Below are positions 5,500 to 16,993 of a stretch of 64,000 nt of DNA, piece after piece. The position numbers and the translations under genes were made by a program. Origin of the DNA: Bacteroidia bacterium (GTDB lineage Bacteria; Bacteroidota; Bacteroidia; Flavobacteriales; Flavobacteriaceae); contig JAUIMB010000005.1 of assembly GCA_030432635.1 (NCBI GenBank), forward strand, positions 124,001 to 188,000. The letters are read 5' to 3'. Numbering within the stretch: the first letter of the stretch is position 1; each line of letters opens with the position of its first letter. The notes beneath the pieces were generated by a model, which worked only from the letters and a program-made list of their open reading frames with translations, ran no database searches and was not told where the DNA came from.

Positions 5500-5913
5500 T
5501 TAATGTGGTAATTTATCCCTGAGCAAGCCATAGATATAAGTTCCAAGAAGTGCAGCCACTATAACAACCAACATTGGTAAAAATCCAGCGCCTATTAAGG
5601 TAAACATTGGTCCTGGACATGCACCTGCCAATGCCCAACCCAATCCAAAAAAGATTCCACCTATTAAATAACGAGCTACACTTTTGTTCTTTGGACAAAA
5701 AGAAATGTCTTCACCATAAAAGGATTTTACCCTAAGTCTTTTAATCCCTTGCACTACAATTATTCCCAACACGAGTGCTGAGCCAATGATACCATACATA
5801 TGAAAAGACTCAAACTTAAACATCTCATAAATACGGAACCATGATGCTGCTTCCGACTTGAACATTGTAATGCCAAAGACAATTCCTATAATTAAATATA
5901 CTAACGTTCTCAT
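5500..5913 (-). CDS. YeeE/YedE-type half transporter (DUF6691-like)
   Basis: 137 residues with four predicted membrane segments. The conserved cysteine of the YeeE/YedE family is in GWALAGACPGPMFTLIGAG (about 95-113). Full-length YeeE proteins take up thiosulfate through relayed cysteines. Here the function is split over two small proteins, this one and the gene 3 bases upstream. Such split pairs sit next to sulfide-detoxification genes in several bacteria. It is the second gene of an operon driven by the Crp/Fnr-type site at 6522-6535. Probable role: import or handling of thiosulfate or sulfane-sulfur species; the exact substrate is inferred. Confidence 0.8.
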   Translation of the reverse strand: MRTLVYLIIGIVFGITMFKSEAASWFRIYEMFKFESFHMYGIIGSALVLGIIVVQGIKRLRVKSFYGEDISFCPKNKSVARYLIGGIFFGLGWALAGACPGPMFTLIGAGFLPMLVVIVAALLGTYIYGLLRDKLPH

Positions 5914-5916
5914 ATA

Positions 5917-6474
5917 CTAAAAGATTAAAGGAAATATTAAATGAATCATTATTAATCCTCCAAGGAAAAATCCTACTACTGCTATTAATGACGGTAATTG
6001 CAGATCACTCAATCCCGAAATCGCATGTCCTGATGTACAGCCTCCAGCATACCTTGCCCCAAAACCGACCAAAAAGCCTCCAACGACCAAAACCAATAAT
6101 CCCTTTATATCTGAAAAAACAGCAAAATCAAAAAGTTCGGTTGGTAAATATGCCGAACCAGCACTCTCAAAGCCAAGTGATTTTAAATCTTCTACAGTAT
6201 TCGGATTGATGGCAACCATAGCATCATTGCTCAAGTAATTAGAAGCGATGAAACCACCAATAATTGCGCCTAAGACTACTACCAAATTCCATTTTTGGGA
6301 TTTCCAGTCAAATTTGAAAAACTCTGCCTTGTTTCCTGCGCCACAAATAGTGCACATCGTTCTTAGGTTGGATGACATCCCAAAGCTTTTTCCAACCATT
6401 ATCAACAAGAACATGATAAACGCAATCATTGGCCCAGAAACATACCAAGGCCAAGGTTCAAAAATCCAATCCAT
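5917..6474 (-). CDS. YeeE/YedE-type half transporter (DUF395)
   Basis: 185 residues with about five membrane helices. The family motif GFGARYAGGCTSGHAISGLS (about 139-158) carries the conserved cysteine. An additional CTICGAG near residue 41 supplies a second cysteine pair. It is the first gene of the two-gene half-transporter operon. The start codon lies about 13 bases after the predicted transcription start of the Crp/Fnr-controlled promoter. It is expected to work with the 137-residue partner as a thiosulfate or sulfur-compound channel in the inner membrane. Confidence 0.82.
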   Translation of the reverse strand: MDWIFEPWPWYVSGPMIAFIMFLLIMVGKSFGMSSNLRTMCTICGAGNKAEFFKFDWKSQKWNLVVVLGAIIGGFIASNYLSNDAMVAINPNTVEDLKSLGFESAGSAYLPTELFDFAVFSDIKGLLVLVVGGFLVGFGARYAGGCTSGHAISGLSDLQLPSLIAVVGFFLGGLIMIHLIFPLIF

Positions 6475-6490
6475 ATGTTATTATTTTGTA

Positions 6491-6535
6491 CAAAAATAAA
6501 ATTATTGTTTTTCTCAGGTCAGTAACTTAAGTTAC
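6491..6535 (-). promoter_or_regulatory. Crp/Fnr-type box and -7 element, YeeE operon
   Basis: A perfect palindrome GTAACTTAAGTTAC lies at 6522-6535. On the minus strand it is followed by TATTTTTG (6498-6491), an exact TAnnTTTG -7 element. The palindrome centre is 37.5 bases from the end of the -7 element, giving about -41 relative to the start. This is class II activator geometry. Confidence 0.75.
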
Positions 6536-6536
6536 A

Positions 6537-6992
6537 TTATCCTAATTTAGGAAAAAAGCGTCCTGTAATTGCTTTATAATCTTGATATTCTGGAAATTTA
6601 TACATTAGTTGCTGTTCTTCATAAGAGGACTTTAAACTAAACAACGCGCAAAGCAGGACAGAAATGCCAATTTTATAAGTCGAACTCGAATATAAACCGT
6701 ACCCAAAGGTCATGAGTATAATCCCTGAATATATGGGATGCCTCACATATCTATATACACCATTGATAATAAGCTTCGAGTTTGGTTTAGGGACTGGAAA
6801 AGGAGATAAATTTTTATTTAGCTGAAGGACAGAGATTACACTTATTGCAACTCCAAGAACGCAAAGTACTATGCCTAACATTGAAATCCATTTGAAGGTT
6901 TTAAAAGGAAGAATCTTAACATCAAACACATAGGCTATAAAAAGTAATATTTGTATGCTTACGTAGGATATGTCTTTGGTATTGATCTTCAT
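6537..6992 (-). CDS. ICMT-like membrane methyltransferase
   Basis: 151 residues with about four membrane helices. The C-terminal signature NGVYRYVRHPIYSGIILMTFG (about 81-101) is the SAM-binding RHPxY motif of the isoprenylcysteine carboxyl methyltransferase / phospholipid methyltransferase group. The ATG overlaps the upstream lipoprotein stop by 4 bases (ATGA), so the two are translationally coupled. Substrate is unknown. Some members of this superfamily (MddA) methylate methanethiol, which is notable in a sulfur locus, but no residue seen here decides this. Confidence 0.7.
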   Translation of the reverse strand: MKINTKDISYVSIQILLFIAYVFDVKILPFKTFKWISMLGIVLCVLGVAISVISVLQLNKNLSPFPVPKPNSKLIINGVYRYVRHPIYSGIILMTFGYGLYSSSTYKIGISVLLCALFSLKSSYEEQQLMYKFPEYQDYKAITGRFFPKLG

Positions 6993-7702
6993 TTCGGAAG
7001 ATAAAGTTGCATTCCGTCTTTAAAAACCACACTATCAAGGTGTCCCATTTTCTGGCGATCTTCTGTAATTAGATGCAGATGCATATTTGTATCGTGGTGG
7101 GTAAATACACCTTTATGATCTCTAGAATAGAATCCAATAACATCAACCATTTCATTTGCCAACATATAGTTCGTCTGTCCTACATGAGCCTCTTTAGGTG
7201 AGCTTACTTTTGTTCCACTAGGCAAGTTTTGTATATGTATATCTGCATTTTCGATCGTTCCTTTTAATTTGAAAACAAAAGGCATTGTTACTTCTTGAAC
7301 CTTGCTATTAATGTATGCTTCCATATCCTTTAGGGTTTTAATGGATTTTGGCAAGGTTTCTCTTGACCAATCGAGTACGTTTCCGTAGACAAAAAATGGT
7401 GCTTTAACCTGAAATGTTTCTTCAACCTTCATGGTCGAATCTGAAAGCACTCGGGAAGTGTAGGCTTTTCCATCAACAATGAGCAACTCACCCTTCAAAT
7501 ATTCAACAGGACCTAAACCATATAACCCTTCTTTATTCAAAGTATCCAGGAGTACTTTTCCTCCAAGCTCTCCTTTCCACATCACATCTTTCATCGCAGC
7601 AACACACACCACAGCATTTTGCGAATTGGCCTCTTGTTGTTTTTCCTTACAAGCAAATAAAAGCAGTATATTGATAATGATTATATATCTAAAATATTTC
7701 AT
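6989..7702 (-). CDS. Acetolactate-decarboxylase-like lipoprotein
   Basis: 237 residues. The lipobox LLFAC gives lipid-modified Cys18. The body matches the alpha-acetolactate decarboxylase (BudA) family: YGLGPVEYLKGELLIVDGKAY (about 61-81), and the zinc triad His208-x-His210-x10-His221 in MHLHLITEDRQKMGH with exact family spacing. The protein ends soon after, so the C-terminal glutamate region of true BudA seems shortened. Classical BudA is cytoplasmic; a lipoprotein form in a sulfide-oxidation locus is unexpected. It lies 64 bases downstream of the SQR gene and is coupled to the ICMT-like gene. Confidence 0.7.
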   Translation of the reverse strand: MKYFRYIIIINILLLFACKEKQQEANSQNAVVCVAAMKDVMWKGELGGKVLLDTLNKEGLYGLGPVEYLKGELLIVDGKAYTSRVLSDSTMKVEETFQVKAPFFVYGNVLDWSRETLPKSIKTLKDMEAYINSKVQEVTMPFVFKLKGTIENADIHIQNLPSGTKVSSPKEAHVGQTNYMLANEMVDVIGFYSRDHKGVFTHHDTNMHLHLITEDRQKMGHLDSVVFKDGMQLYLPK

Positions 7703-7723
7703 GGTACCTCATTTAAAAAAGAT

Positions 7724-7737
7724 GTAACCAAAATTAC
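7724..7737. promoter_or_regulatory. Imperfect Crp/Fnr-type box upstream of the lipoprotein gene
   Basis: GTAACCAAAATTAC matches the GTAAC-N4-GTTAC consensus with one mismatch and sits in a longer GATGTAA/TTACATC inverted repeat. It lies 22 bases upstream of the ATG at 7702. No -7 element is found at the spacing shared by the other boxes, so it may be a weak, repressing or unrelated site. Confidence 0.35.
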
Positions 7738-7766
7738 ATCATTTGTCATGAATCAAACTTAAAACA

Positions 7767-9074
7767 TTAAACATCTTGCCCTTTGAGCATTTTATTCCAA
7801 TACAGATACGGCAGCATGTATTTCTTGAGCATCCAAAGGCGCCAATGCTCTTTTGAGGAATCAGAAATGAACATACGCTTTAATTTTGGGTCTGGTATAA
7901 AATTCTTATCATAATCAAACTCGGCCAAAACCATTTTACCATAATCGGTTACTAATGGACAAGAAGAATATCCATTGTACGATTTACCACCAATTCTATC
8001 ATGCTTGATAAGTAACTGTAAGTTATCCACTACAATAGGGACTTGTTTACGAATGGCTGCGCCTGTTTTTGCAGTTGGCAAAGCGCATACGTCACCTAAA
8101 CCAAAAATATTCGGGTATTTGCTGTGTTGCATGGAGTGATGGTTTACATCTAGCCATTTGGCTTCATTTACCAAAGATGAATTCTGTACGAATTTCGGTG
8201 CAACAGATGGTGGTGCTGTATGTAGCATGTCAAAGTGAATTCCGAAGCGGTTTCCATCGATAGTCACCTTAACATCTTTGTAGTTGTACTGAAAATCCTT
8301 ATCAATAACTTCACTATCATCTTCTCCAGACATCACCACACAACCTCCAGCTGAAACATCTTTACCTAGTTCATACCAAGCGATTTGCATGTCTGCGTCA
8401 ATAGCAACTAATTTATGATGAAATCGTAAGTTAATGTCTTTTTTGTCTACTACTTCCATCAAGGTTTTGGCAACAGGTTTCACACCAAAAATAACGCTTC
8501 CAGCGGTAGCGAAAACCACATCTGTTTTTGCTCTAACGCCACTTTTGCTAAAATGACTTTCTGCCAAATACATGATTTTTTGAGGTGCACCTCCACATTT
8601 AATTGGTGTTGTTGGTTGCGTAAACAATGCTGTGCCACCTTTAAAGTTCTTTATCACATTCCATGTGTGTTCTGGATCAGTGTAATTACTGCAAACAACA
8701 CCTTTGTCAATGGCATCTCCCAATCCAGGCACCAACGAAAAATCATAGGTCAAACCAGGTGCCACAACTAAGTAATCGTAAGTTATATTACCACTGGATT
8801 TGGTCGAAACCGAATTACTTTCAGGGCTAAAACCTGAGGCATAATCCTTTATCCAACTCACTCCATTTGGCATAACATCTGCCATTGGCTTTGCCGTCTT
8901 ATCAAAATTATAGGTTCCTGCGCCTACCAAAGTCCATGCTGGTTGGTAGTAATGCGTTGTCGCAGGTTCAATTAAACCAATGTCAAGCGTTTTGTCTTGT
9001 TTCAAAAGTTGAGCAGCCGTCATGATACCTGCTGTTCCACCTCCAATTATTAAAATTTGATGATGTTTGCCCAT
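7767..9074 (-). CDS. sqr: Sulfide:quinone oxidoreductase, human SQOR-like (type II)
   Basis: 435 residues. The FAD-binding Rossmann motif is GGGTAG (11-16). Both redox cysteines of the SQOR type are present: Cys160 in TPIKCGGAPQKIMYLAE and Cys372 in GYSSCPLVTDYGKMVLAEFDY. These blocks are strikingly close to mitochondrial SQOR. The C-terminal MLPYLYWNKML is the usual amphipathic membrane anchor. The enzyme oxidises sulfide at the cytoplasmic face of the membrane, passes electrons to menaquinone and hands the sulfane sulfur to an acceptor. Its promoter carries a perfect GTAAC-N4-GTTAC box. It is the pathway entry enzyme, feeding the persulfide dioxygenases nearby. Confidence 0.9.
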   Translation of the reverse strand: MGKHHQILIIGGGTAGIMTAAQLLKQDKTLDIGLIEPATTHYYQPAWTLVGAGTYNFDKTAKPMADVMPNGVSWIKDYASGFSPESNSVSTKSSGNITYDYLVVAPGLTYDFSLVPGLGDAIDKGVVCSNYTDPEHTWNVIKNFKGGTALFTQPTTPIKCGGAPQKIMYLAESHFSKSGVRAKTDVVFATAGSVIFGVKPVAKTLMEVVDKKDINLRFHHKLVAIDADMQIAWYELGKDVSAGGCVVMSGEDDSEVIDKDFQYNYKDVKVTIDGNRFGIHFDMLHTAPPSVAPKFVQNSSLVNEAKWLDVNHHSMQHSKYPNIFGLGDVCALPTAKTGAAIRKQVPIVVDNLQLLIKHDRIGGKSYNGYSSCPLVTDYGKMVLAEFDYDKNFIPDPKLKRMFISDSSKEHWRLWMLKKYMLPYLYWNKMLKGQDV

Positions 9075-9097
9075 TGTTAGTTAGTTTTAAAATTTCT

Positions 9098-9141
9098 TAA
9101 ATGTAACAGTAACTTCGTTTCTCATCAGTAACATTTGTTAC
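9098..9141 (-). promoter_or_regulatory. Crp/Fnr-type box and -7 element, sqr
   Basis: The perfect palindrome GTAACATTTGTTAC is at 9128-9141. The -7 element TACATTTA (9105-9098, minus strand; 7 of 8 to TAnnTTTG counting fixed positions loosely) ends 36.5 bases from the box centre. A leader of about 20 bases to the ATG at 9074 follows. Extra GTAAC half-sites (TGTAACAGTAAC, 9102-9113) lie inside the promoter. Confidence 0.75.
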
Positions 9142-9338
9142 AAAAAGGCTTAACATCAAAGAGATACCAAGTCAAAGTGACACAATAAAGGTCTACAAAG
9201 CACATCGCCTGATGCTAACCTGTTTCCAGTTTTACAGACAGTGATTGCTTACCCAACTTGATGATTTTTTAAGTACTTTTAATGAGCCTTTTTAATCTTG
9301 TAACATTGGAATTTATCGAGGCAATTTTATAATTGGTT

Positions 9339-10226
9339 ATGAAAAGATATATAAATGCATTTGCTGACGCTTTTAATGGGACATTAGATTGGACGTGGAA
9401 GTCCATCATTTTTGAGGTCCCTTGGTATACGAATTATTTTTGGGGACTAATTGTCATATCCATCATAGTTTGGTTACTGGAAATCATTTTTCCGTGGCGA
9501 AAACAACAATCCGTGTTTAGAAAGGACTTTTGGTTAGACGGTTTTTATATGTTCTTTAATTTTTTCTTGTTCGCTATTGCCATTAGTGGTTTCTATAAAA
9601 TACTGCAGTTAGGTTTTGCAGACTTAGGAATTAACGATAATAGTTTGGCACTTATAAACCCTGAAACTTGGCCAACCTGGCTTCAACTGCTTGTGTTTTT
9701 TATACTGTTGGATTTTGTACAGTGGTTTACACATACCCTTCTTCACAAATATGCTTTCCTTTGGCAATTTCATAAAGTACATCACAGTGTCAAGGAAATG
9801 GGCTTTGCCGCACACTTGCGCTATCATTGGATGGAAAACATTTTATACAAACCGCTTAAGACCTTTGCTGTCATGGTCTTGTTCGGTTTTGAGCCAGAGC
9901 AGGCTTACATTGTGCATTTTATGGCGATAACCATTGGACATCTTAACCACGCCAATATTAAGATTACTTGGGGACCATTAAAGTATATTTTCAACAATCC
10001 CGTGATGCACTTATACCATCATGCTTACGACCTTCCGGAAGGTAAATATGGTGTGAATTTTGGAATTAGCTTAAGTCTTTGGGATTATATTTTTAAAACA
10101 AATTATATTCCTGAAGACAGTGGTACCATAGAAATTGGGTTTCCGGGAGATGATAATTTTCCAAAAGATTTTGTTGGGCAAAACACCTACGGGTTTAAAA
10201 AAGCTGTGTCAAGAAAAGGTCGTTAG
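9339..10226 (+). CDS. Sterol desaturase / fatty acid hydroxylase family protein
   Basis: 295 residues from the ATG at 9339; an in-frame TTG 6 bases earlier is less likely. Three to four N-terminal membrane helices are followed by the di-iron histidine clusters HTLLH, HKVHH and HLYHH, plus an intervening HLNH, characteristic of the fatty acid hydroxylase superfamily. The substrate is a lipid but is not identifiable. It is the only plus-strand gene inside the sulfur island and ends with a 4-base convergent overlap with the TPMT-family gene. A half-site GTAACATTGG lies at 9299-9308 upstream, too incomplete to call. Confidence 0.82.
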   Translation: MKRYINAFADAFNGTLDWTWKSIIFEVPWYTNYFWGLIVISIIVWLLEIIFPWRKQQSVFRKDFWLDGFYMFFNFFLFAIAISGFYKILQLGFADLGINDNSLALINPETWPTWLQLLVFFILLDFVQWFTHTLLHKYAFLWQFHKVHHSVKEMGFAAHLRYHWMENILYKPLKTFAVMVLFGFEPEQAYIVHFMAITIGHLNHANIKITWGPLKYIFNNPVMHLYHHAYDLPEGKYGVNFGISLSLWDYIFKTNYIPEDSGTIEIGFPGDDNFPKDFVGQNTYGFKKAVSRKGR

Positions 10227-10804
10227 GTTTTCAGTAATTTGACAAAAAGTTCTTTTCCTGTTCTACTTTCCTCAGAATTATAAGCTGGCTCCATGATCTC
10301 AATATTGAACAATGGCTGAAAATATTCCAAATACTCATCCTTATGCCCTCCAAATGGAGGACGATCCTTATATAAAGGCGCATTAAACAAAAGACCTACA
10401 ATTTTTCCATTGGCATTCAACAACTGGTGAGCTTGCTCAACATATTTTGGTCGTAAAGAGGGATCAATGGCACAAAAAAAGGTTTGTTCAATGATAAGAT
10501 CAAACCTCATGTTCAACTCAAAAAAATTATTGTGAATCACATGTGATACAGGAAAAGAAGGAACCCTTGTTTTGAAATTGGATAGTGCCTTTTCAGAAAC
10601 ATCTACCACAAACACATTAATGAAACCTAGCTCATGTAAGTACTCTGCTTCATGTGCGTTTCCACCACCTGGAATTAATATACGTTGCTCTTTGTTGTTT
10701 AATTGATCAAAATATTTTTTTAGAGGTGTTGAGATCACACCTAAATCCCAACCCGTATCCTTATTGAGATAACGGTCATTCCAAAACGTTTCGGATATAT
10801 CCAT
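10223..10804 (-). CDS. TPMT-family SAM-dependent methyltransferase
   Basis: 193 residues. The N-terminal FWNDRYLNKDTGWDLGVISTPL (about 7-28) and SAM-binding LIPGGGNAHEAEYLHELGF (about 43-61) are hallmarks of the TPMT family (PF05724 type). A later VVDVSEKAL, EQTFFCAIDPSLRPKYVEQ and PPFGGHKDEYLEYFQP agree. Family members methylate thiols, and plant relatives methylate halides, bisulfide and thiocyanate. In this locus a small sulfur nucleophile such as sulfide or a thiol is the likeliest substrate (inference). The ATG overlaps the thioredoxin stop (TAATG). Confidence 0.85.
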   Translation of the reverse strand: MDISETFWNDRYLNKDTGWDLGVISTPLKKYFDQLNNKEQRILIPGGGNAHEAEYLHELGFINVFVVDVSEKALSNFKTRVPSFPVSHVIHNNFFELNMRFDLIIEQTFFCAIDPSLRPKYVEQAHQLLNANGKIVGLLFNAPLYKDRPPFGGHKDEYLEYFQPLFNIEIMEPAYNSEESRTGKELFVKLLKT

Positions 10805-11100
10805 TATCTAAATTCCTTAATTTTTGATACAATAGCCTCTGTTGAAAGCACACCAGACTGTCTCCACACAATAGCTCCCTTTTTATAAATGATCAACGTG
10901 GGTACGCCTCGCACATTTAGCTTTGAGGCTAGTGTCTGATTTTTATCCACGTCTATTTTTAAAATTATGGCCTCTTCCTTCATGATATCCTTTACCTCTT
11001 CCAAAATAGGCACCAAAACCTTACATGGTCCACACCATGTAGCAAAAAAGTCAACCAAAACAGGTTTGTCCTGTGTTATTATTTCTGAAAACTTGCCCAT
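10804..11100 (-). CDS. Thioredoxin-fold protein
   Basis: 98 residues, a compact thioredoxin with active site WCGPC (Cys23, Cys26) and the cis-proline in VRGVPTLIIY. No signal peptide, so cytoplasmic. It is one gene in a tightly packed sulfur operon: HMA protein 2 bases upstream, methyltransferase overlapping downstream. It is distinct from the general thioredoxin at 18882. Probable role: reducing persulfides formed on rhodanese or SQR acceptor proteins. Confidence 0.88.
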   Translation of the reverse strand: MGKFSEIITQDKPVLVDFFATWCGPCKVLVPILEEVKDIMKEEAIILKIDVDKNQTLASKLNVRGVPTLIIYKKGAIVWRQSGVLSTEAIVSKIKEFR

Positions 11101-11102
11101 GA

Positions 11103-11372
11103 TTAATTAGTCAATTTTCCTGAGGCACAGCTTACAAAGGATTTTGCCTTAGTCATGAAAGAATTGGAATCACCTTCAACAGGATAACCAAGTGAAAGGA
11201 GTTCAGCCTTAACCAGCTGCATGTCCTCTTTTGAACGGTATTCCACTGTTACAGATGATGTCTCAGCATCCACTTCAACCTCACTTATTGTTTTTAGTGC
11301 CTTGAGTTTGGTTGTAATACTATGAGCACAACCTCCACATTTTAAATTCTGAATGATAACTGTTGTTTTCAT
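11103..11372 (-). CDS. Heavy-metal-associated (HMA) domain protein
   Basis: 89 residues. A ferredoxin-like HMA fold with the metal- or sulfur-binding loop LKCGGCAHS (Cys12, Cys15) in a copper-chaperone-like sequence. A third cysteine (VSCAS) is near the C-terminus. No metal-transport ATPase is nearby, and it is embedded between a rhodanese and a thioredoxin. The CxxC could therefore carry sulfane sulfur rather than copper; this is inference. Confidence 0.82.
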   Translation of the reverse strand: MKTTVIIQNLKCGGCAHSITTKLKALKTISEVEVDAETSSVTVEYRSKEDMQLVKAELLSLGYPVEGDSNSFMTKAKSFVSCASGKLTN

Positions 11373-11384
11373 TTCTGTTCAATT

Positions 11385-11732
11385 TTATTGTCGCTTCCAG
11401 GCTATCATTCCGCCTTTTAAATCATAAATCGCCTTAAACCCCAAATGATTTAAAAGCTTTGACGCCTTACCACTTCTATTTCCACTTCTGCAGTACAAGT
11501 AAATAGGTTTGTCTTTATCCAAGGATAATAATTGCGCTTTAAAATCATTGGCATAAAAATCTATAAGCTTGGCATTTTTTATATGACCTTGTTGATATTC
11601 GTTAGGTGTTCGCACATCCAAAAGTTGTACATGAGGATTTTGAATACCATCATTAAATGCCTTTGGATCTAATTTCTTGATATTGTCACTGCGTTTAGAT
11701 TTATGACCAAGCAGCCATCTGAATGAGAACAT
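11385..11732 (-). CDS. Single-domain rhodanese
   Basis: 115 residues. One rhodanese domain with the active-site loop YLYCRSGNRSGKAS (catalytic Cys near 84) and the preceding LLDVRTPNEYQQGHI signature. The N-terminal LGHKSKR segment is basic and no signal peptide is evident. It transfers sulfane sulfur between persulfide, thiosulfate and thiol acceptors. It heads the block rhodanese-HMA-thioredoxin-methyltransferase and is separated from the upstream rhodanese by a hairpin-containing 93-base gap. Confidence 0.88.
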   Translation of the reverse strand: MFSFRWLLGHKSKRSDNIKKLDPKAFNDGIQNPHVQLLDVRTPNEYQQGHIKNAKLIDFYANDFKAQLLSLDKDKPIYLYCRSGNRSGKASKLLNHLGFKAIYDLKGGMIAWKRQ

Positions 11733-11769
11733 ATTTTTGTCTGTTTTTATGTTGTTTTTTTCTAAAGTA

Positions 11770-11800
11770 AAAAGGAAATATTAAAACAATACTTCCTTTT
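11770..11800 (-). terminator. Intra-operon hairpin, possible attenuator
   Basis: On the minus strand AAAAGGAA pairs with TTCCTTTT and the stem extends inward through TATT/AATA with one bulge on each side. It is followed by a T-rich stretch. It lies between two rhodanese genes and may reduce read-through from the persulfide dioxygenase operon into the distal genes. Confidence 0.4.
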
Positions 11801-11825
11801 CACCACTAACCAACCAAAAAAAACA

Positions 11826-12143
11826 TCAATTAGGAAATACTGTTTCGCCTTGCCAATCCAGCATTCCTCCTAAAAGATTGTATGTTATATCTAAACCTAA
11901 TCGTTCCAACTCTTCACAAGCCTTGAGACTTCTAACACCACTTCTGCAATAGACATAATAATTCTTATTGGGATTTAGTTGACAGGCTTGTTGTTGAAAT
12001 GTGCCAAGGTCCATGATGTTCATCATCAACGCATTTTCCTGAATACCCTCAACCCATTCATCTGGTCTCCTAGCATCAATGACAATTGCGTTTTCATCTT
12101 CTTTTAGTTGAGCAATCCATTGTTCTTGCGTTAAATTTGTCAT
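11826..12143 (-). CDS. Single-domain rhodanese
   Basis: 105 residues. It contains VIDARRPDEWVEGIQEN and the active-site loop YVYCRSGVRSLKACEEL (catalytic Cys near 75). It follows the 469-residue persulfide dioxygenase gene by 12 bases and should be co-transcribed from the Crp/Fnr-controlled promoter at 13586-13629. Likely role: using persulfide and sulfite made by its neighbour to form thiosulfate. It is a paralogue of the rhodanese at 11385, with low sequence similarity outside the active loop. Confidence 0.88.
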   Translation of the reverse strand: MTNLTQEQWIAQLKEDENAIVIDARRPDEWVEGIQENALMMNIMDLGTFQQQACQLNPNKNYYVYCRSGVRSLKACEELERLGLDITYNLLGGMLDWQGETVFPN

Positions 12144-12155
12144 ACTAATCCTGTT

Positions 12156-13565
12156 TTAGAGTGTTGTTGGACAAACGTAATCGGACACCCTTATTCCTGC
12201 GTCTTTAATCGCCTTAAATCCGCCTTGAACATCTATAAGGTTATGAATGCCTCTACTTTTGAGAATCGATGCCGCAATGACACTTCTATAACCTCCAGCA
12301 CAGTGTACATAAAATGTTTCATCATCTGGAAACTCTGAGAGGTAATTGTTGATATAATCCAGAGGTGTATGGTGTGCATTAATGACATGTTCTGATAGGA
12401 ATTCACCGTCCTTTCTTACATCAAATACAGGCACATCATTTTTATCTAACGCATCTTTGAAGTTAGATGCTGGAACCGAACTAACAGTATCGTATTCTTT
12501 TGCAGCTTTTTTCCAAGCCTCAAATCCACCTTCAAGATATCCCAAGGTATTATCAAAACCAACACGCGACAAACGTTTAATGGTCTCTTCTTCTCTACCT
12601 TCAGGTGTTACAAGTAGAATAGGCTGTTGTACATCTGCAATCAATGCACCAACCCAAGGCGCAAAACTACCATCCAAACCAATAAAGATAGAACGCGGTA
12701 TGTGACCCTTTACGAAATCGGATTGATGACGAACATCCAATACTACAGCTTCAGTTTCGTTCGCAGCAGCTTCAAATGCGTCAGGTGACAATGCAATGGC
12801 ACTGCGTTTCAGCACCTCTTGAAAATCTTCATAACCTTCCTTATTCAGTTTTACATTCAAAGGAAAATATTCTGGTGGAGGCAACAAACCTTCAGTAACC
12901 TCTTTAATGAATTCCGCTCTACTCATGTCTGCACGAAGTGCATAATTGGTTTTTTTCTGGTTTCCCAAGGTATCCACAGTTTCCTTACTCAAGTTTTTTC
13001 CACATGCTGAACCTGCACCATGAGCTGGATACACAATGACATCGTCTGCCAATGGCATGATTTTATTTCGCAAACTATCGAACAAATAACTTGCAAGATC
13101 TTCTTCTGTGATTTCTCCTGCTTTTTGTGCCAAATCTGGACGACCTACATCACCAAGAAACAAGGTGTCACCACTAAAAATCGCGTGATCCTTTCCGTTT
13201 TCATCTTTTAACAAGTATACCGTACTTTCCATGGTGTGACCAGGAGTATGCAATGCTAGAATAGTAATATCACCTAATTTGAATTCTTGTCCATCTTTGG
13301 CAATTATGGCATCAAAGCTAGGGTTTGCTAATGGTCCGTATATGATTGGCGCACCTGTTTTTTTAGATAGAGTAACGTGACCACTCACAAAATCGGCATG
13401 AAAATGGGTTTCAAAAATATATTTGATTTTGGCATTGTTATTTATAGCCTTGTCCAAGTATGGCTGTACTTCCCTTAATGGGTCTATTATGGCAACCTCA
13501 CCTTTACTTTCGATGTAATAAGCGCCTTGAGCTAGGCAACCAGTATATATTTGTTCTATTATCAT
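12156..13565 (-). CDS. Persulfide dioxygenase-rhodanese fusion, CstB-like
   Basis: 469 residues in three domains. Residues 1-250 form a metallo-beta-lactamase fold of the ETHE1 type with iron ligands in ETHFHADFVSGH (His54, His56), PGHTME (His110) and SGDTLFLGD (Asp133), and a GAGSACGK loop. Residues 260-355 form a rhodanese-like domain whose catalytic cysteine is missing (ILLVTPEGREEE). Residues 365-469 are an active rhodanese with Cys422 (HCAGGYRS). This order matches staphylococcal CstB, which oxidises persulfide to sulfite and makes thiosulfate. A conserved DYVCPTT tail ends the protein. It is preceded by its own Crp/Fnr-type box. Confidence 0.92.
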   Translation of the reverse strand: MIIEQIYTGCLAQGAYYIESKGEVAIIDPLREVQPYLDKAINNNAKIKYIFETHFHADFVSGHVTLSKKTGAPIIYGPLANPSFDAIIAKDGQEFKLGDITILALHTPGHTMESTVYLLKDENGKDHAIFSGDTLFLGDVGRPDLAQKAGEITEEDLASYLFDSLRNKIMPLADDVIVYPAHGAGSACGKNLSKETVDTLGNQKKTNYALRADMSRAEFIKEVTEGLLPPPEYFPLNVKLNKEGYEDFQEVLKRSAIALSPDAFEAAANETEAVVLDVRHQSDFVKGHIPRSIFIGLDGSFAPWVGALIADVQQPILLVTPEGREEETIKRLSRVGFDNTLGYLEGGFEAWKKAAKEYDTVSSVPASNFKDALDKNDVPVFDVRKDGEFLSEHVINAHHTPLDYINNYLSEFPDDETFYVHCAGGYRSVIAASILKSRGIHNLIDVQGGFKAIKDAGIRVSDYVCPTTL

Positions 13566-13585
13566 AATTTACATTTTACAATGTT

Positions 13586-13629
13586 CAAAATTAAAATATA
13601 ATTCTATAATATACAGTAACATATGTTAC
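13586..13629 (-). promoter_or_regulatory. Crp/Fnr-type box and -7 element, first CstB-like operon
   Basis: The perfect palindrome GTAACATATGTTAC is at 13616-13629. The -7 element TAATTTTG (13593-13586, minus strand) is an exact TAnnTTTG. Centre-to-end distance is 36.5 bases. A leader of about 17 bases to the ATG follows. Confidence 0.8.
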
Positions 13630-13686
13630 ACTATTTTTTAACGAAGTATGAGTCGTTGATTTATAACAAGAATTACTTTACAATAC

Positions 13687-13721
13687 AAAAAGCCTTGTAT
13701 TTTTCGAGAACAAGGCTTTTT
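13687..13721 (-). terminator. Rho-independent terminator
   Basis: AAAAAGCCTTG (13687-13697) pairs perfectly with CAAGGCTTTTT (13711-13721). It lies 18 bases after the stop of the second CstB-like gene and precedes the promoter of the next operon, isolating the two units. Confidence 0.85.
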
Positions 13722-13738
13722 CTTGAGAGCGCTCAGAT

Positions 13739-15154
13739 TTACAGCATCGTCGTGGGACAAACATAATCTGTTTTTGCCACTGAAGTCTTTTCGGTTATCT
13801 CCTTGAATCCACCACTAACATCTACAAAATCAACCCAACCCCTTTGCTTTAATATGGAAGCAGCAATCATACTTCGATAACCACCAGCACAATGAACCAC
13901 GAAGGGTTTGTCTTTTGGTATTTCAGAAAGGTGATGATTGATTTCATTCAAAGGAATGTTCATGGCATCAATGACATGCTCTGAATCAAATTCGCTTTTT
14001 TTCCGAACGTCAATAACCAAAGGATTATCTGAATTGTACATGTGCTCAAACGTCTCAACTGAAATCCTATTGACACTTTCAGTATCCCTTTTTGCGTTTT
14101 GCCAAGACTCAAAACCTCCCTTTAGATAACCAATGGTATTATCGTAACCCACTCTAGCAAGTCTGGTGATTGCTTCTTCTACTTTATCTTGGTATGTCAC
14201 AAGCAGGATTTCCTGCCTTACACTAGGAATCATCTCTCCAACCCATTGGGCGAAATTCCCTGACAATCCGATATTGATGCTATTTGGGATAAATCCTTTT
14301 GCAAAATCCTCAGGATCTCTAGTGTCCAGAACCAAAGCACCTGTCTCATTTGCCACAGTTTCAAAGGTATCCACATCAAGTGCTTGTGTTCCTCGATCCA
14401 TTATGGTGTCTAAACTTTCATATCCTTTAATATTCATTAGTACATTTTGTGGAAAATAACCTGGAGGTGTTGTTAAACCTGTAAGAAGTGCGTCTACAAA
14501 TTCATCTTCGGTCATGTTCTGTAAGGCATAGTTTACCTTTTTTTGATTCCCAAGGGTATCTGTGGTTTCCTTACTCATCATTTTTCCGCAGGCTGAACCT
14601 GCACCATGATTTGGGTACACAATTAAATCATCAGCAAGTGGCATGATCTTTTTGCGCAATGAGTGGTATAAGTGTCGGGCCAACTTATCTTCAGTTAAAT
14701 CAGAAATGACATGTTGCGCCAAATCAGGACGACCAACATCACCAATAAATAAGGTATCACCAGTAATGATGCCATGCTCTTTTCCTTGTTCATCAATGAG
14801 CAAATAAGTGGTACTTTCCATAGTGTGTCCAGGTGTATGGATAACTTTAACCTTATAGTTTCCAATGTCAAATATCTGATGGTCCTCTGCAACAATAGCC
14901 TCATATCCAGGCTTAGCATTAGGCCCAAATACGATTTCTGCACCTGTTTTGTTTTTTAAATCGAGATGACCACTTACAAAATCGGCATGGAAATGCGTCT
15001 CAAACACATATTTAATCTCAGCTTTATCAGCTTGAGCTCTTTCAATATAGGGCTGTACTTCCCTTAAAGGATCAAAAACAGCTGCTTCACCATTACTTTC
15101 AATATAATATGCGGCATGTGCCAAACATCCTGTATAAATTTGTTCTACTTTCAT
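13739..15154 (-). CDS. Persulfide dioxygenase-rhodanese fusion, second CstB-like paralogue
   Basis: 471 residues, co-linear with the 469-residue neighbour. It has an ETHE1-type domain with ETHFHADFVSGH, HTPGHTMEST and GDTLFIGDVGRPD. A central rhodanese-like domain lacks cysteine at the active loop (ILLVTYQDKVEE). A C-terminal active rhodanese has VVHCAGGYRS, and the end is DYVCPTTML. The two proteins are clearly homologous end to end but substantially diverged, so this is an old duplication. It has its own promoter with a one-mismatch Crp/Fnr box and its own terminator. Having two copies may separate acceptor preference or expression level. Confidence 0.92.
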   Translation of the reverse strand: MKVEQIYTGCLAHAAYYIESNGEAAVFDPLREVQPYIERAQADKAEIKYVFETHFHADFVSGHLDLKNKTGAEIVFGPNAKPGYEAIVAEDHQIFDIGNYKVKVIHTPGHTMESTTYLLIDEQGKEHGIITGDTLFIGDVGRPDLAQHVISDLTEDKLARHLYHSLRKKIMPLADDLIVYPNHGAGSACGKMMSKETTDTLGNQKKVNYALQNMTEDEFVDALLTGLTTPPGYFPQNVLMNIKGYESLDTIMDRGTQALDVDTFETVANETGALVLDTRDPEDFAKGFIPNSINIGLSGNFAQWVGEMIPSVRQEILLVTYQDKVEEAITRLARVGYDNTIGYLKGGFESWQNAKRDTESVNRISVETFEHMYNSDNPLVIDVRKKSEFDSEHVIDAMNIPLNEINHHLSEIPKDKPFVVHCAGGYRSMIAASILKQRGWVDFVDVSGGFKEITEKTSVAKTDYVCPTTML

Positions 15155-15183
15155 TTTTAAAAAGTTTTTAATATTAAACAGAC

Positions 15184-15227
15184 TAAAAGTAGCACTTAAG
15201 AAGCTTTTGTTTAGTGACTTAGGTTAC
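15184..15227 (-). promoter_or_regulatory. Crp/Fnr-type box and -7 element, second CstB-like gene
   Basis: GTGACTTAGGTTAC (15214-15227) has one mismatch to GTAAC-N4-GTTAC. The -7 element TACTTTTA (15191-15184, minus strand) ends exactly 36.5 bases from the box centre. The predicted leader is about 26 bases. Confidence 0.7.
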
Positions 15228-15283
15228 ACAAAAGAACATAATTAACAAACAATGATATTTGTCATAAATCTAATTTATTCCAT

Positions 15284-15311
15284 AAAAAATGGTCTCGATA
15301 AAAGAGACCAT
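15284..15311 (-). terminator. Rho-independent terminator after tauE-like gene
   Basis: ATGGTCTC (15289-15296) and GAGACCAT (15304-15311) form an 8-bp stem with a 7-base loop. On the minus strand six T residues (15289-15284) follow. Confidence 0.8.
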
Positions 15312-15334
15312 AATAAAACCCTAGAATGACCTTA

Positions 15335-16141
15335 TTATTGGTTCACGACAAACTCCATATAGAATATAAAAATCGCCATGACAAAGATAAAATAGCCAAA
15401 GCCTTTTTTGAGTTTCTTCCCGTTGATGAAATTCCCTAAATAACTTCCAATAAAAATTCCAACTAATGAAAACGACGTAAAAACAGCCAAAAATTTCCAG
15501 TCGATTGACATGGTAAAAGCATCACCAAGAAAGAATCCCAGCAAGGATTTAAATGCGATAATTATCAGAGACGTTGCCACTGCAACTTTCATTTCAACAT
15601 TAGCCAATATCACCAAGGCTGGAATAATTAGAAATCCACCTCCAGCACCTATCAATCCAGTAACTGCTCCAACCAATAAGCCTTCAATAAGTATTAAAGG
15701 GTAATTATACCTAACGTCTCCTTCAATCTTTTTTTCCTTACGCGTTTTGAGCATGGAAAATGCTGCTGGAAACATCAAAGCTGCAAACAAACCAAACATG
15801 GCCATGCGTCTTGTAAATTCAAAATTCCCAATATTGAACAATACATCAGGCAAAGCAGGAACAACATAATGTCTCACTACCGAAACACCAATTATGGCAG
15901 GCATACCAAAAACCACAGCTGTTCGCCAATCTACCAAACCTTTAAAATGTTGTTTGAGACCTCCGACCAAGGCACTGGCTCCAACAATAAAAAGTGAATA
16001 TGCTGTAGCCAATTTCTCATTGACCGAAAACAAATATGCCAAAACAGGCACTGCTAATATCGAACCTCCACCACCAATAAGGCCAAGAGAGATTCCAATA
16101 ATCAATGCACATGCGTAACCCAATATTTCGACTACTTCCAT
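15335..16141 (-). CDS. TauE/SafE family sulfite/sulfur-anion exporter
   Basis: 268 residues with about eight membrane helices and the duplicated glycine-rich signatures GISLGLIGGGGSILAVPVLAYL (about 19-40) and AVTGLIGAGGGFLIIPALVIL (about 158-178), which define the family. It probably exports sulfite or a related sulfonate, relieving the toxicity of the sulfite made by the two persulfide dioxygenases. It is monocistronic, with its own Crp/Fnr box and an exact -7 element, and a terminator downstream. Confidence 0.88.
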   Translation of the reverse strand: MEVVEILGYACALIIGISLGLIGGGGSILAVPVLAYLFSVNEKLATAYSLFIVGASALVGGLKQHFKGLVDWRTAVVFGMPAIIGVSVVRHYVVPALPDVLFNIGNFEFTRRMAMFGLFAALMFPAAFSMLKTRKEKKIEGDVRYNYPLILIEGLLVGAVTGLIGAGGGFLIIPALVILANVEMKVAVATSLIIIAFKSLLGFFLGDAFTMSIDWKFLAVFTSFSLVGIFIGSYLGNFINGKKLKKGFGYFIFVMAIFIFYMEFVVNQ

Positions 16142-16160
16142 AAGGTGATCTTTAAAGCAA

Positions 16161-16204
16161 CAAATGTAAAATGTGTAGAATTCATTGGCAGTAACATTGG
16201 TTAC
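16161..16204 (-). promoter_or_regulatory. Crp/Fnr-type box and -7 element, tauE-like gene
   Basis: The perfect half-sites GTAAC-ATTG-GTTAC are at 16191-16204. The -7 element TACATTTG (16168-16161, minus strand) is an exact match. The distance is 36.5 bases. The box overlaps the intergenic spacer just after the regulator gene, so the exporter has a promoter separate from its regulator. Confidence 0.8.
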
Positions 16205-16213
16205 AGATTTGGT

Positions 16214-16846
16214 TTATATATCCTTTAAAATTATAGAATTTCTGTGGAGTTCAATCTTTCCGAGGGTTTCCAGTTTTTTTAACAATCTGGAAACAACCAC
16301 TCTAGAGGTGTGAAGCTCGTAAGCTATTTGTTGGTGTGTATTATGAATGGTTTTATCGTTTGATATCCTTGATTTTTCCAAAAGATATTTCAAAAGCCGC
16401 TCATCCATTTTCAAAAAGGCAATACTATCAATGGTCTCTAGCATTTCATTGAGCCTATTGTGATAGCTTTCGAACACAAAACTTCTCCAGCTTTTATATT
16501 TTTCGGACCATTCTTCCATTTTTTCAATTGGAATCATAATCAACTTGGCATCGGTTTCAGCAATCGCTCTAATTTCGCTTTTTGTCTGACCCAAACAGCA
16601 GGTCAATGTCATGGCACAGGTATCTCCTTTTTCTAAAAAATAAAGCAATAGCTCATCACCATCACCATCTTCCCTCAAAATCTTTATTGCTCCAGAAACC
16701 AACAAGGGCATTGCTCGAACATATTGTCCGATTTCCATCATTTTAAATCCTTCTGGAATTTCCTTAAAGGTGCCAACTTGGTTGATTTCATTAAGTAGAC
16801 CTTCTTCAAAAAGATGTCCATAGTTGTCTTTAAGTTCTTGAATCAT
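16214..16846 (-). CDS. Crp/Fnr-family transcriptional regulator of the sulfur island
   Basis: 210 residues. The N-terminal cyclic-nucleotide-binding-like beta-roll (about 25-110) lacks an obvious cAMP pocket and has no Fnr N-terminal cysteine cluster. Instead three cysteines lie in the roll: Cys77, Cys83 and Cys84 (DTCAMTLTCCLG). A long dimerisation helix leads to a winged HTH (about 150-210) with the recognition segment HTSRVVVSRLLKKLE. Its own promoter and the promoters of five adjacent sulfur operons carry GTAAC-N4-GTTAC boxes at activator position. It is therefore inferred to be an autoregulated activator responding to sulfide or persulfide. Confidence 0.85.
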   Translation of the reverse strand: MIQELKDNYGHLFEEGLLNEINQVGTFKEIPEGFKMMEIGQYVRAMPLLVSGAIKILREDGDGDELLLYFLEKGDTCAMTLTCCLGQTKSEIRAIAETDAKLIMIPIEKMEEWSEKYKSWRSFVFESYHNRLNEMLETIDSIAFLKMDERLLKYLLEKSRISNDKTIHNTHQQIAYELHTSRVVVSRLLKKLETLGKIELHRNSIILKDI

Positions 16847-16854
16847 ATGCCAAT

Positions 16855-16940
16855 TTATGGTTTTTCGAGCGCTTTTGCGATTAACATATTAAATACTAAC
16901 AAAAGAATAGGTGAACAATGTACTGTAAATCCCAACGCAT
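16855..16940 (-). promoter_or_regulatory. Long leader of the regulator gene with two mini-ORFs
   Basis: The predicted start near 16946 leaves about 100 bases before the ATG at 16846, against 13-26 bases for the other regulon promoters. It holds two small frames on the minus strand. One has 14 codons at 16940-16896, begins MRWDLQY and ends in FFC. The other has 10 codons at 16887-16855 (MLIAKALEKP). Whether either is translated is unknown. Confidence 0.3.
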
Positions 16941-16949
16941 CAATTTTTG

Positions 16950-16993
16950 TAAAAGTATTATCCTTTTTACGCAATCACAGTAACAAAGGTTAC
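16950..16993 (-). promoter_or_regulatory. Crp/Fnr-type box and -7 element, autoregulatory
   Basis: GTAAC-AAAG-GTTAC is at 16980-16993, upstream of the regulator gene. The -7 element TACTTTTA (16957-16950, minus strand) is identical to that of the second CstB-like gene. The centre-to-end distance is again 36.5 bases, indicating positive autoregulation. Confidence 0.75.

Follow-up and report, generated by a model that had tools for sequence, protein, structure and literature searches.

The Crp/Fnr protein encoded in a cluster of sulfur genes in this Flavobacteriaceae genome is very probably a class II activator of a sulfide-oxidation regulon, as judged by comparative analysis of genes and promoters. 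The window referred to here is the whole stretch of DNA that was analysed, 64,000 nucleotides in length. A sequence-only reading of the window had proposed that Crp/Fnr-type boxes of the form GTAAC-N4-GTTAC define a sulfur regulon, and this proposal is supported by the conservation of the boxes, by their co-occurrence with the regulator and by the sulfur genes among the targets. In the mechanism put forward, the boxes would be operators of the 210-residue Crp/Fnr protein, which would bind as a dimer centred at −41.5 and activate, in class II fashion, sigma-A promoters in which a −7 box is present and a −33 TTG is absent. The regulator would turn on sulfide/persulfide oxidation (sqr, two CstB-like proteins, rhodaneses and thioredoxin), and also its own gene, sulfur-compound transport (tauE, yeeE) and a remote DUF983 gene, with reactive sulfur as the candidate inducer, sensed at Cys77/83/84.

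The boxes lie upstream of yeeE, sqr, both metallo-beta-lactamase (MBL)–rhodanese genes, tauE and the Crp/Fnr gene; five are exact and one (15214) has one mismatch, and their coordinates were correctly given in the sequence-only reading. The features are as follows.

5500..6474, − strand: yeeE/yedE-type sulfur transporter, two half genes (5917-6474, 5500-5913); Pfam Sulf_transp
6491..6498, − strand: −7 element of yeeE, TATTTTTG; N23 from box
6522..6535, − strand: box of yeeE, GTAACTTAAGTTAC; exact match
7767..9074, − strand: sqr, sulfide:quinone oxidoreductase-like; type III SQR model, score under cut-off
9098..9105, − strand: −7 element of sqr, TACATTTA; N22 from box
9128..9141, − strand: box of sqr, GTAACAAATGTTAC; exact match
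12156..13565, − strand: cstB1, domain order as in cstB2; Pfam
13586..13593, − strand: −7 element of cstB1, TAATTTTG; N22 from box
13616..13629, − strand: box of cstB1, GTAACATATGTTAC; exact match
13739..15154, − strand: cstB2, metallo-beta-lactamase and two rhodanese stretches; Pfam Lactamase_B, Rhodanese
15184..15191, − strand: −7 element of cstB2, TACTTTTA; N22 from box
15214..15227, − strand: box of cstB2, one mismatch, GTAACCTAAGTCAC; pattern scan
15335..16141, − strand: tauE-like sulfite/sulfur exporter gene; Pfam TauE
16161..16168, − strand: −7 element of tauE, TACATTTG; N22 from box
16191..16204, − strand: box of tauE, GTAACCAATGTTAC; exact match
16214..16846, − strand: Crp/Fnr regulator gene, 210 aa product; Pfam HTH_Crp_2 and cNMP_binding
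16950..16957, − strand: −7 element of the regulator gene, TACTTTTA; N22 from box
16980..16993, − strand: box of the regulator's own gene (autoregulation), GTAACCTTTGTTAC; exact match

The spacer between box and TAnnTTT is exactly 22 bases in five promoters and 23 in yeeE; counted from the box centre to the last base of TAnnTTT(G/A), the distance is the claimed 36.5 in sqr, cstB1, cstB2, tauE and crp, and 37.5 in yeeE. Judged by its domain order, the cstB2 product is a CstB-like persulfide dioxygenase/sulfurtransferase, and cstB1 seems to be the first gene of a run that continues (10223-12143; Pfam) with two rhodanese genes and with HMA, thioredoxin and TPMT-like genes. A seventh match with one mismatch, at 7724, was dropped as a site, being without an in-register −7 element. 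Within the sqr operon, 6989-7702 encodes a small acetolactate-decarboxylase-like protein (Pfam AAL_decarboxy), and at 9333-10226 there is an FA_hydroxylase gene divergent from sqr; the box precedes such a gene in some relatives (11 placements).

Within the window, seven matches with at most one mismatch were found against 1.09 expected from shuffles (largest 4). In the whole genome (3,508,160 bases), the exact palindrome occurs six times, and five of these fall inside a 10.5-kb cluster. The reversed palindrome, used as a control, has 18 exact occurrences, so that the bare count of six is unremarkable and it is the clustering of five in 10.5 kb that counts; post hoc arithmetic puts the chance of placing five of six in one such stretch at ~1e-12. 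The sixth exact palindrome, rejected as a regulatory site, is intragenic, in an ORF recognised by eye as presumably atpC-like. The genome-wide scan for box plus −7 element, a check that the sequence-only reading had suggested, returned four matches of the exact box with TAnnTTT at N22, all of them in the cluster. At up to one mismatch there are seven, six in the cluster and one at C13:316463, and the reversed control with the same geometry also yields six, so the one-mismatch count alone is not significant. This last site (G000; in L011:1501-1964) reads GTGACTTTTGTTAC, N22, TATTTTTG and stands ahead of a DUF983 gene outside the window; because the one-mismatch count matches the control, it rests on its −7 element and on conservation in relatives, where an exact N22 box precedes a DUF983 gene in 20/123 loci. 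The two DUF983 proteins compared are 51% identical, and the remote gene is a probable seventh member of the regulon.

Conservation was followed in two sets of Flavobacteriaceae loci. The first comprised 60 loci, one per genus, with regulators 54-87% identical, and held 160 exact boxes spread over 56/60 loci; the reversed box occurred once, and the other 59 permuted half-site palindromes averaged 1.03 (maximum 10). TAnnTTT followed the box at N22 in 120 cases, at N21 in 7, at N23 in 5 and at any other spacing in no more than 3, while the reversed −7 element gave a mean of 2.3 and its highest count, 18, at N26, a spacing at which it shares bases with the real one. Among the 160 placements upstream of genes 117 had N22, and only 9 were upstream of crp (autoregulatory). 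The four loci without an exact box include L070, in which cstB1 and yeeE genes are present and the regulator is 84% identical. The second set, of 63 loci without overlap with the first, was drawn from Tamlana, Polaribacter, Lutibacter, Dokdonia, Cellulophaga, Aquimarina, Kordia, Maribacter and others, 17 of the 80 named loci having been left out before counting as they overlapped earlier loci. It held 178 boxes in 63/63 loci, 143 of them at N22 (in 62 loci), with four reversed boxes. Thus the boxes, whose absence from orthologous promoters was to have spoken against the regulon, recur in 56/60 and 63/63 loci, and the claim that the shared spacing exceeds chance is borne out by clustering and by conservation in relatives. 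In a logo of the boxes, the upstream half is preceded by T in 80% of cases, and TG follows the downstream half in roughly 50%. The yeeE promoters of the first 60 loci carry TAnnTTT at N22 in 0/9 cases and TTnnTTTG at N22 in 8/9, and four in the wider set carry TAnnTTT at N22; because relatives keep N22 in this way, the yeeE promoter is best read as having a variant −7 box, not a different arrangement.

A start-site map of F. psychrophilum places the TAnnTTTG −7 box at −12..−5 (PMC9723704, as far as its text was available), and therefore the box centre would fall at −41.5 (−42.5 for yeeE), a class II position. The earlier placing of the site near −41 is thereby upheld as to class, with the exact centre corrected to these values. 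The reported lack of a −33 TTG likewise held: at 120 N22 sites in relatives, TTG was found once at spacer 17, once at 18 and never at 19, and at longer spacers the box itself covers the −33 position. Class II geometry is thus supported by the fixed N22 peak and by a centre taken from the start-site map of another genus, and fixed N22 spacing at −41.5 would suit activation better than repression.

The regulator and its predicted sites were found to occur together. Matches to the regulator at E 1e-20 or better are present in 212/249 family genomes, and the exact full-geometry site in 181/249 (the reversed pattern in 10); the site is found in 177/212 genomes with the regulator vs 4/37 without it (Fisher 6e-18). 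By strength of match, it is present in 136/144 genomes with a regulator at E <1e-73 and in 41/68 with weaker matches. Within the genus, all five genomes whose ortholog is at least 57% identical have exact full-geometry sites, as does one of the six others. Of 35 regulator-positive, site-negative genomes the regulator sequence was read in 30, where residue 183 is Val in 26, Thr in 1 and Glu in 3, and several of the 30 have near-miss boxes beside the gene. Across the phylum (296 genomes), 34 genomes carry the site and 104 the regulator; within the class the site was found in 29 genomes vs 2 for the control. Beyond the class the counts were equal to the control (5 genomes each); in two of these five (G351 and G441) the site adjoins a 37%-identical regulator.

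A further tie between regulator and box is provided by the recognition helix. The HTH of the regulator is TSRVVVSRLLKKLE and its recognition helix reads SRVVVSR, with Arg182 conserved in 62/62 regulators, Val183 in 61/62 and Arg187 in 62/62; in PDB alignments Val183 aligns with Glu181 of CRP and with Val of NtcA chains. In E. coli CRP, the change Glu181Val shifts recognition at the corresponding base from G to A. Residues 180 and 181 are described as correlating with site bases, the R180/E181 code (PMC1274295, in the part available). Scoring N22 sites of the form GT(A/G)A(C/T)-N4-(A/G)T(T/C)AC, with 37 Glu-type loci and with L284, L288 and L295 left out (no or mixed assignment), Glu183-type loci had 21 sites containing G, of which 7 were symmetric and 14 mixed, and none symmetric for A; in Val183-type loci the corresponding numbers were 15 and 128 (Fisher 3e-17, for sites that are not independent in loci that differ in length). 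Val183 thus appears to go with GTAAC and Glu183 with G-containing sites at equal spacing, as the code predicts, which would tie regulator to box. An example of the Glu type is GTGATAATTATCAC upstream of cstB1 in L256, and residue 183 changes at least five times on the tree. Of the loci whose Val regulators carry a His motif, 0/9 contain an exact N22 site, so that Val183 alone is insufficient. L252 and L255, which belong to other families, have Val-type regulators with one Cys and the His motif next to cstB/tauE/yeeE genes, and no GTAAC box with −7 spacing was found near the regulator. In one genus, only 2/17 genomes (13 with Glu-type regulators) showed the GTGA(C/T) pattern in symmetric form, and one of the Glu-type genomes (G394) has an exact GTAAC site remote from its regulator. 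Three Glu-type loci of one genus (L257, L260 and L267) have in common an asymmetric site, GTAACATTAGTCAC, at N22.

The genes at 244 N22 sites with an ORF (123 loci) were cstB1 (63), tauE (38), sqr (26), DUF983 (20), SulP (19), crp (14), rhodanese (13), cstB2 (11), one-Cys peroxiredoxin (10), outer-membrane efflux (8), cytochrome bd (3) and others. Targets in relatives beyond the genes of the window include Tll0287/cytochrome c, molybdopterin oxidoreductase, NrfD/Fe-S protein, DsrE and ferritin-like genes, and the cytochrome bd target is subunit I; cytochrome bd resists sulfide. By gene content, the predicted target set is one of sulfide resistance and oxidation.

Other explanations of the boxes were weighed against this evidence. 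That they are chance palindromes of AT-rich promoters could draw on the bare genome count, which is below that of the reversed control, and is refuted by clustering and by conservation across relatives, leaving it a negligible probability. It is very improbable that they are the known HcpR2 regulon (NO stress, hcp), even with an identical consensus, GTAACnnnnGTTAC, described in 2005 upstream of hcp and reported for Bacteroides too (PMC1274295, in part): hcp (PF03063) was found neither in this genome nor in 10 others of the genus (11/11 searched), the targets here are sulfur genes, and HcpR2 has Pro at the Glu181 position where the regulator here has Val (61/62). Somewhat less remote, but still improbable, is that another Crp/Fnr paralogue binds the boxes, or that they serve as a repressor site, the cluster regulator being a bystander; a first look gave several Crp/Fnr paralogue candidates per genome in the family, whereas the box precedes the regulator gene, the sites co-occur with the regulator, residue 183 covaries with base 3 of the box and the fixed N22 at −41.5 fits activation better. 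Binding of the boxes by the cluster regulator is strongly suggested by the autoregulatory box, the co-occurrence and the residue-183/base-3 correlation, and we infer from the geometry that binding activates transcription.

As for the signal, membership of the Crp/Fnr superfamily is indicated by cNMP-type sensor and HTH_Crp Pfam models, both above cut-off. Narrower assignments were rejected for cAMP-CRP (52.4 bits vs the CRP equivalog cut-off of 266), for NtcA (39 bits vs the NtcA_cyano equivalog cut-off of 244.95) and for the Fe-S protein FNR, the N-terminal cysteine cluster being missing. The only cysteines are Cys77, Cys83 and Cys84, which are conserved in 62, 60 and 59 of 62 regulators and fall, by alignment, in the sensor domain. 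In CRP the phosphate of cAMP is bound by Glu72 and Arg82; these align with Met79 and Lys89 of the regulator and the phosphate ligands are thus missing, making cAMP an unlikely ligand. The sulfur clade combines Val183 with Cys83-Cys84 in 84/92 tips. The same regulon might instead be governed through haem (redox, NO or CO), as in PgRsp, P. gingivalis HcpR or CooA, with the sulfide genes as part of a redox programme, and this we regard as fairly unlikely. The Cys77/Met79 spacing matches Cys76/Met78 of haem-binding PgRsp (by spacing only; PMC6955866, in part), a sister set has C-x-M and then His nine residues on, and cytochrome bd and c-type cytochromes are among the targets in some relatives; yet the sulfur clade has a Cys-Cys pair in place of the His, the targets are mainly sulfur genes, and single changes of Cys76, Met78 or His85 left the haem spectra of PgRsp unaltered in the results available (PMC6955866). 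Reactive sulfur (persulfide) sensed through Cys77/83/84 is favoured over haem, as a plausible inducer.

Marine Flavobacteriaceae, an abundant group, encounter sulfide on particles and in sediments. Box, spacing and regulator together form a testable regulon across many genera, in which box and spacing could predict sulfide-response genes (DUF983, SulP, cytochrome bd), and they offer a rule for locating class II promoters where, as in this phylum, the −7/−33 promoter is unusual; specificity mutants of CRP have a natural counterpart in the Val/Glu correlation. Tentatively, and with the balance tipped a little against it, the protein may be the first Crp/Fnr-type reactive-sulfur sensor: class-wide in Bacteroidota, with a Cys77/Cys83-Cys84 centre in place of the cyclic-nucleotide pocket, and in control of detoxification, of transport and of a cytochrome bd branch that tolerates sulfide. 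Natural changes at the residue aligned with CRP Glu181 would then have fixed its operator class (GTAAC with Val, GTGAC with Glu), promoter geometry staying the same as specificity switched.

E. coli CRP has its class II sites near −41.5, and its promoters resemble those described here in the like fold of the activator and in the dimeric palindrome, but the half site is TGTGA. At cyanobacterial NtcA class II promoters GTA-N8-TAC lies at −41.5 with a −10 box TAN3T, the distance between them being 22 bases in one case (PMC3898017, in part). NtcA has Val at the Glu181 position, as does the regulator here; it is, however, a distant relative (phmmer E 8.9e-9 to the best NtcA chain) that exerts nitrogen control by 2-oxoglutarate at a sigma-70-type −10 box vs TAnnTTTG. 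HcpR2 of Clostridium, Bacteroides and Thermotogales belongs to the same superfamily, shares the consensus and is also changed from Glu at residue 181, but controls hcp, and the parts of its description available do not state an N22/−7 geometry (PMC1274295). The sequence-only reading had known of no described Bacteroidota regulon of this form; this stands for the sulfur genes, as no Bacteroidota regulator of the Crp/Fnr family that governs sulfide oxidation was found in the open-licence literature as far as its text was available, but not for the consensus, known since 2005 (PMC1274295), so that the box sequence is already known and its use for sulfur genes was not found described. PgRsp of P. 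gingivalis is another Bacteroidota Crp/Fnr protein in which the Cys76/Met78 spacing is probably cognate, but it has His85 where the regulator here has Cys-Cys, and the available part of its account reports no sulfur regulon (PMC6955866). A persulfidated Crp-like protein of unknown function has been described in Acinetobacter (PMC7315123, in part). The sulfide-responsive regulators named in the literature consulted are of CsoR, ArsR and sigma-54 types, from other phyla: FisR, CstR and SqrR/BigR act through cysteines and govern sqr together with persulfide dioxygenase genes (PMC9774590, in part), but belong to other families (sigma-54 activator, CsoR and ArsR, respectively) than the Crp/Fnr protein here.
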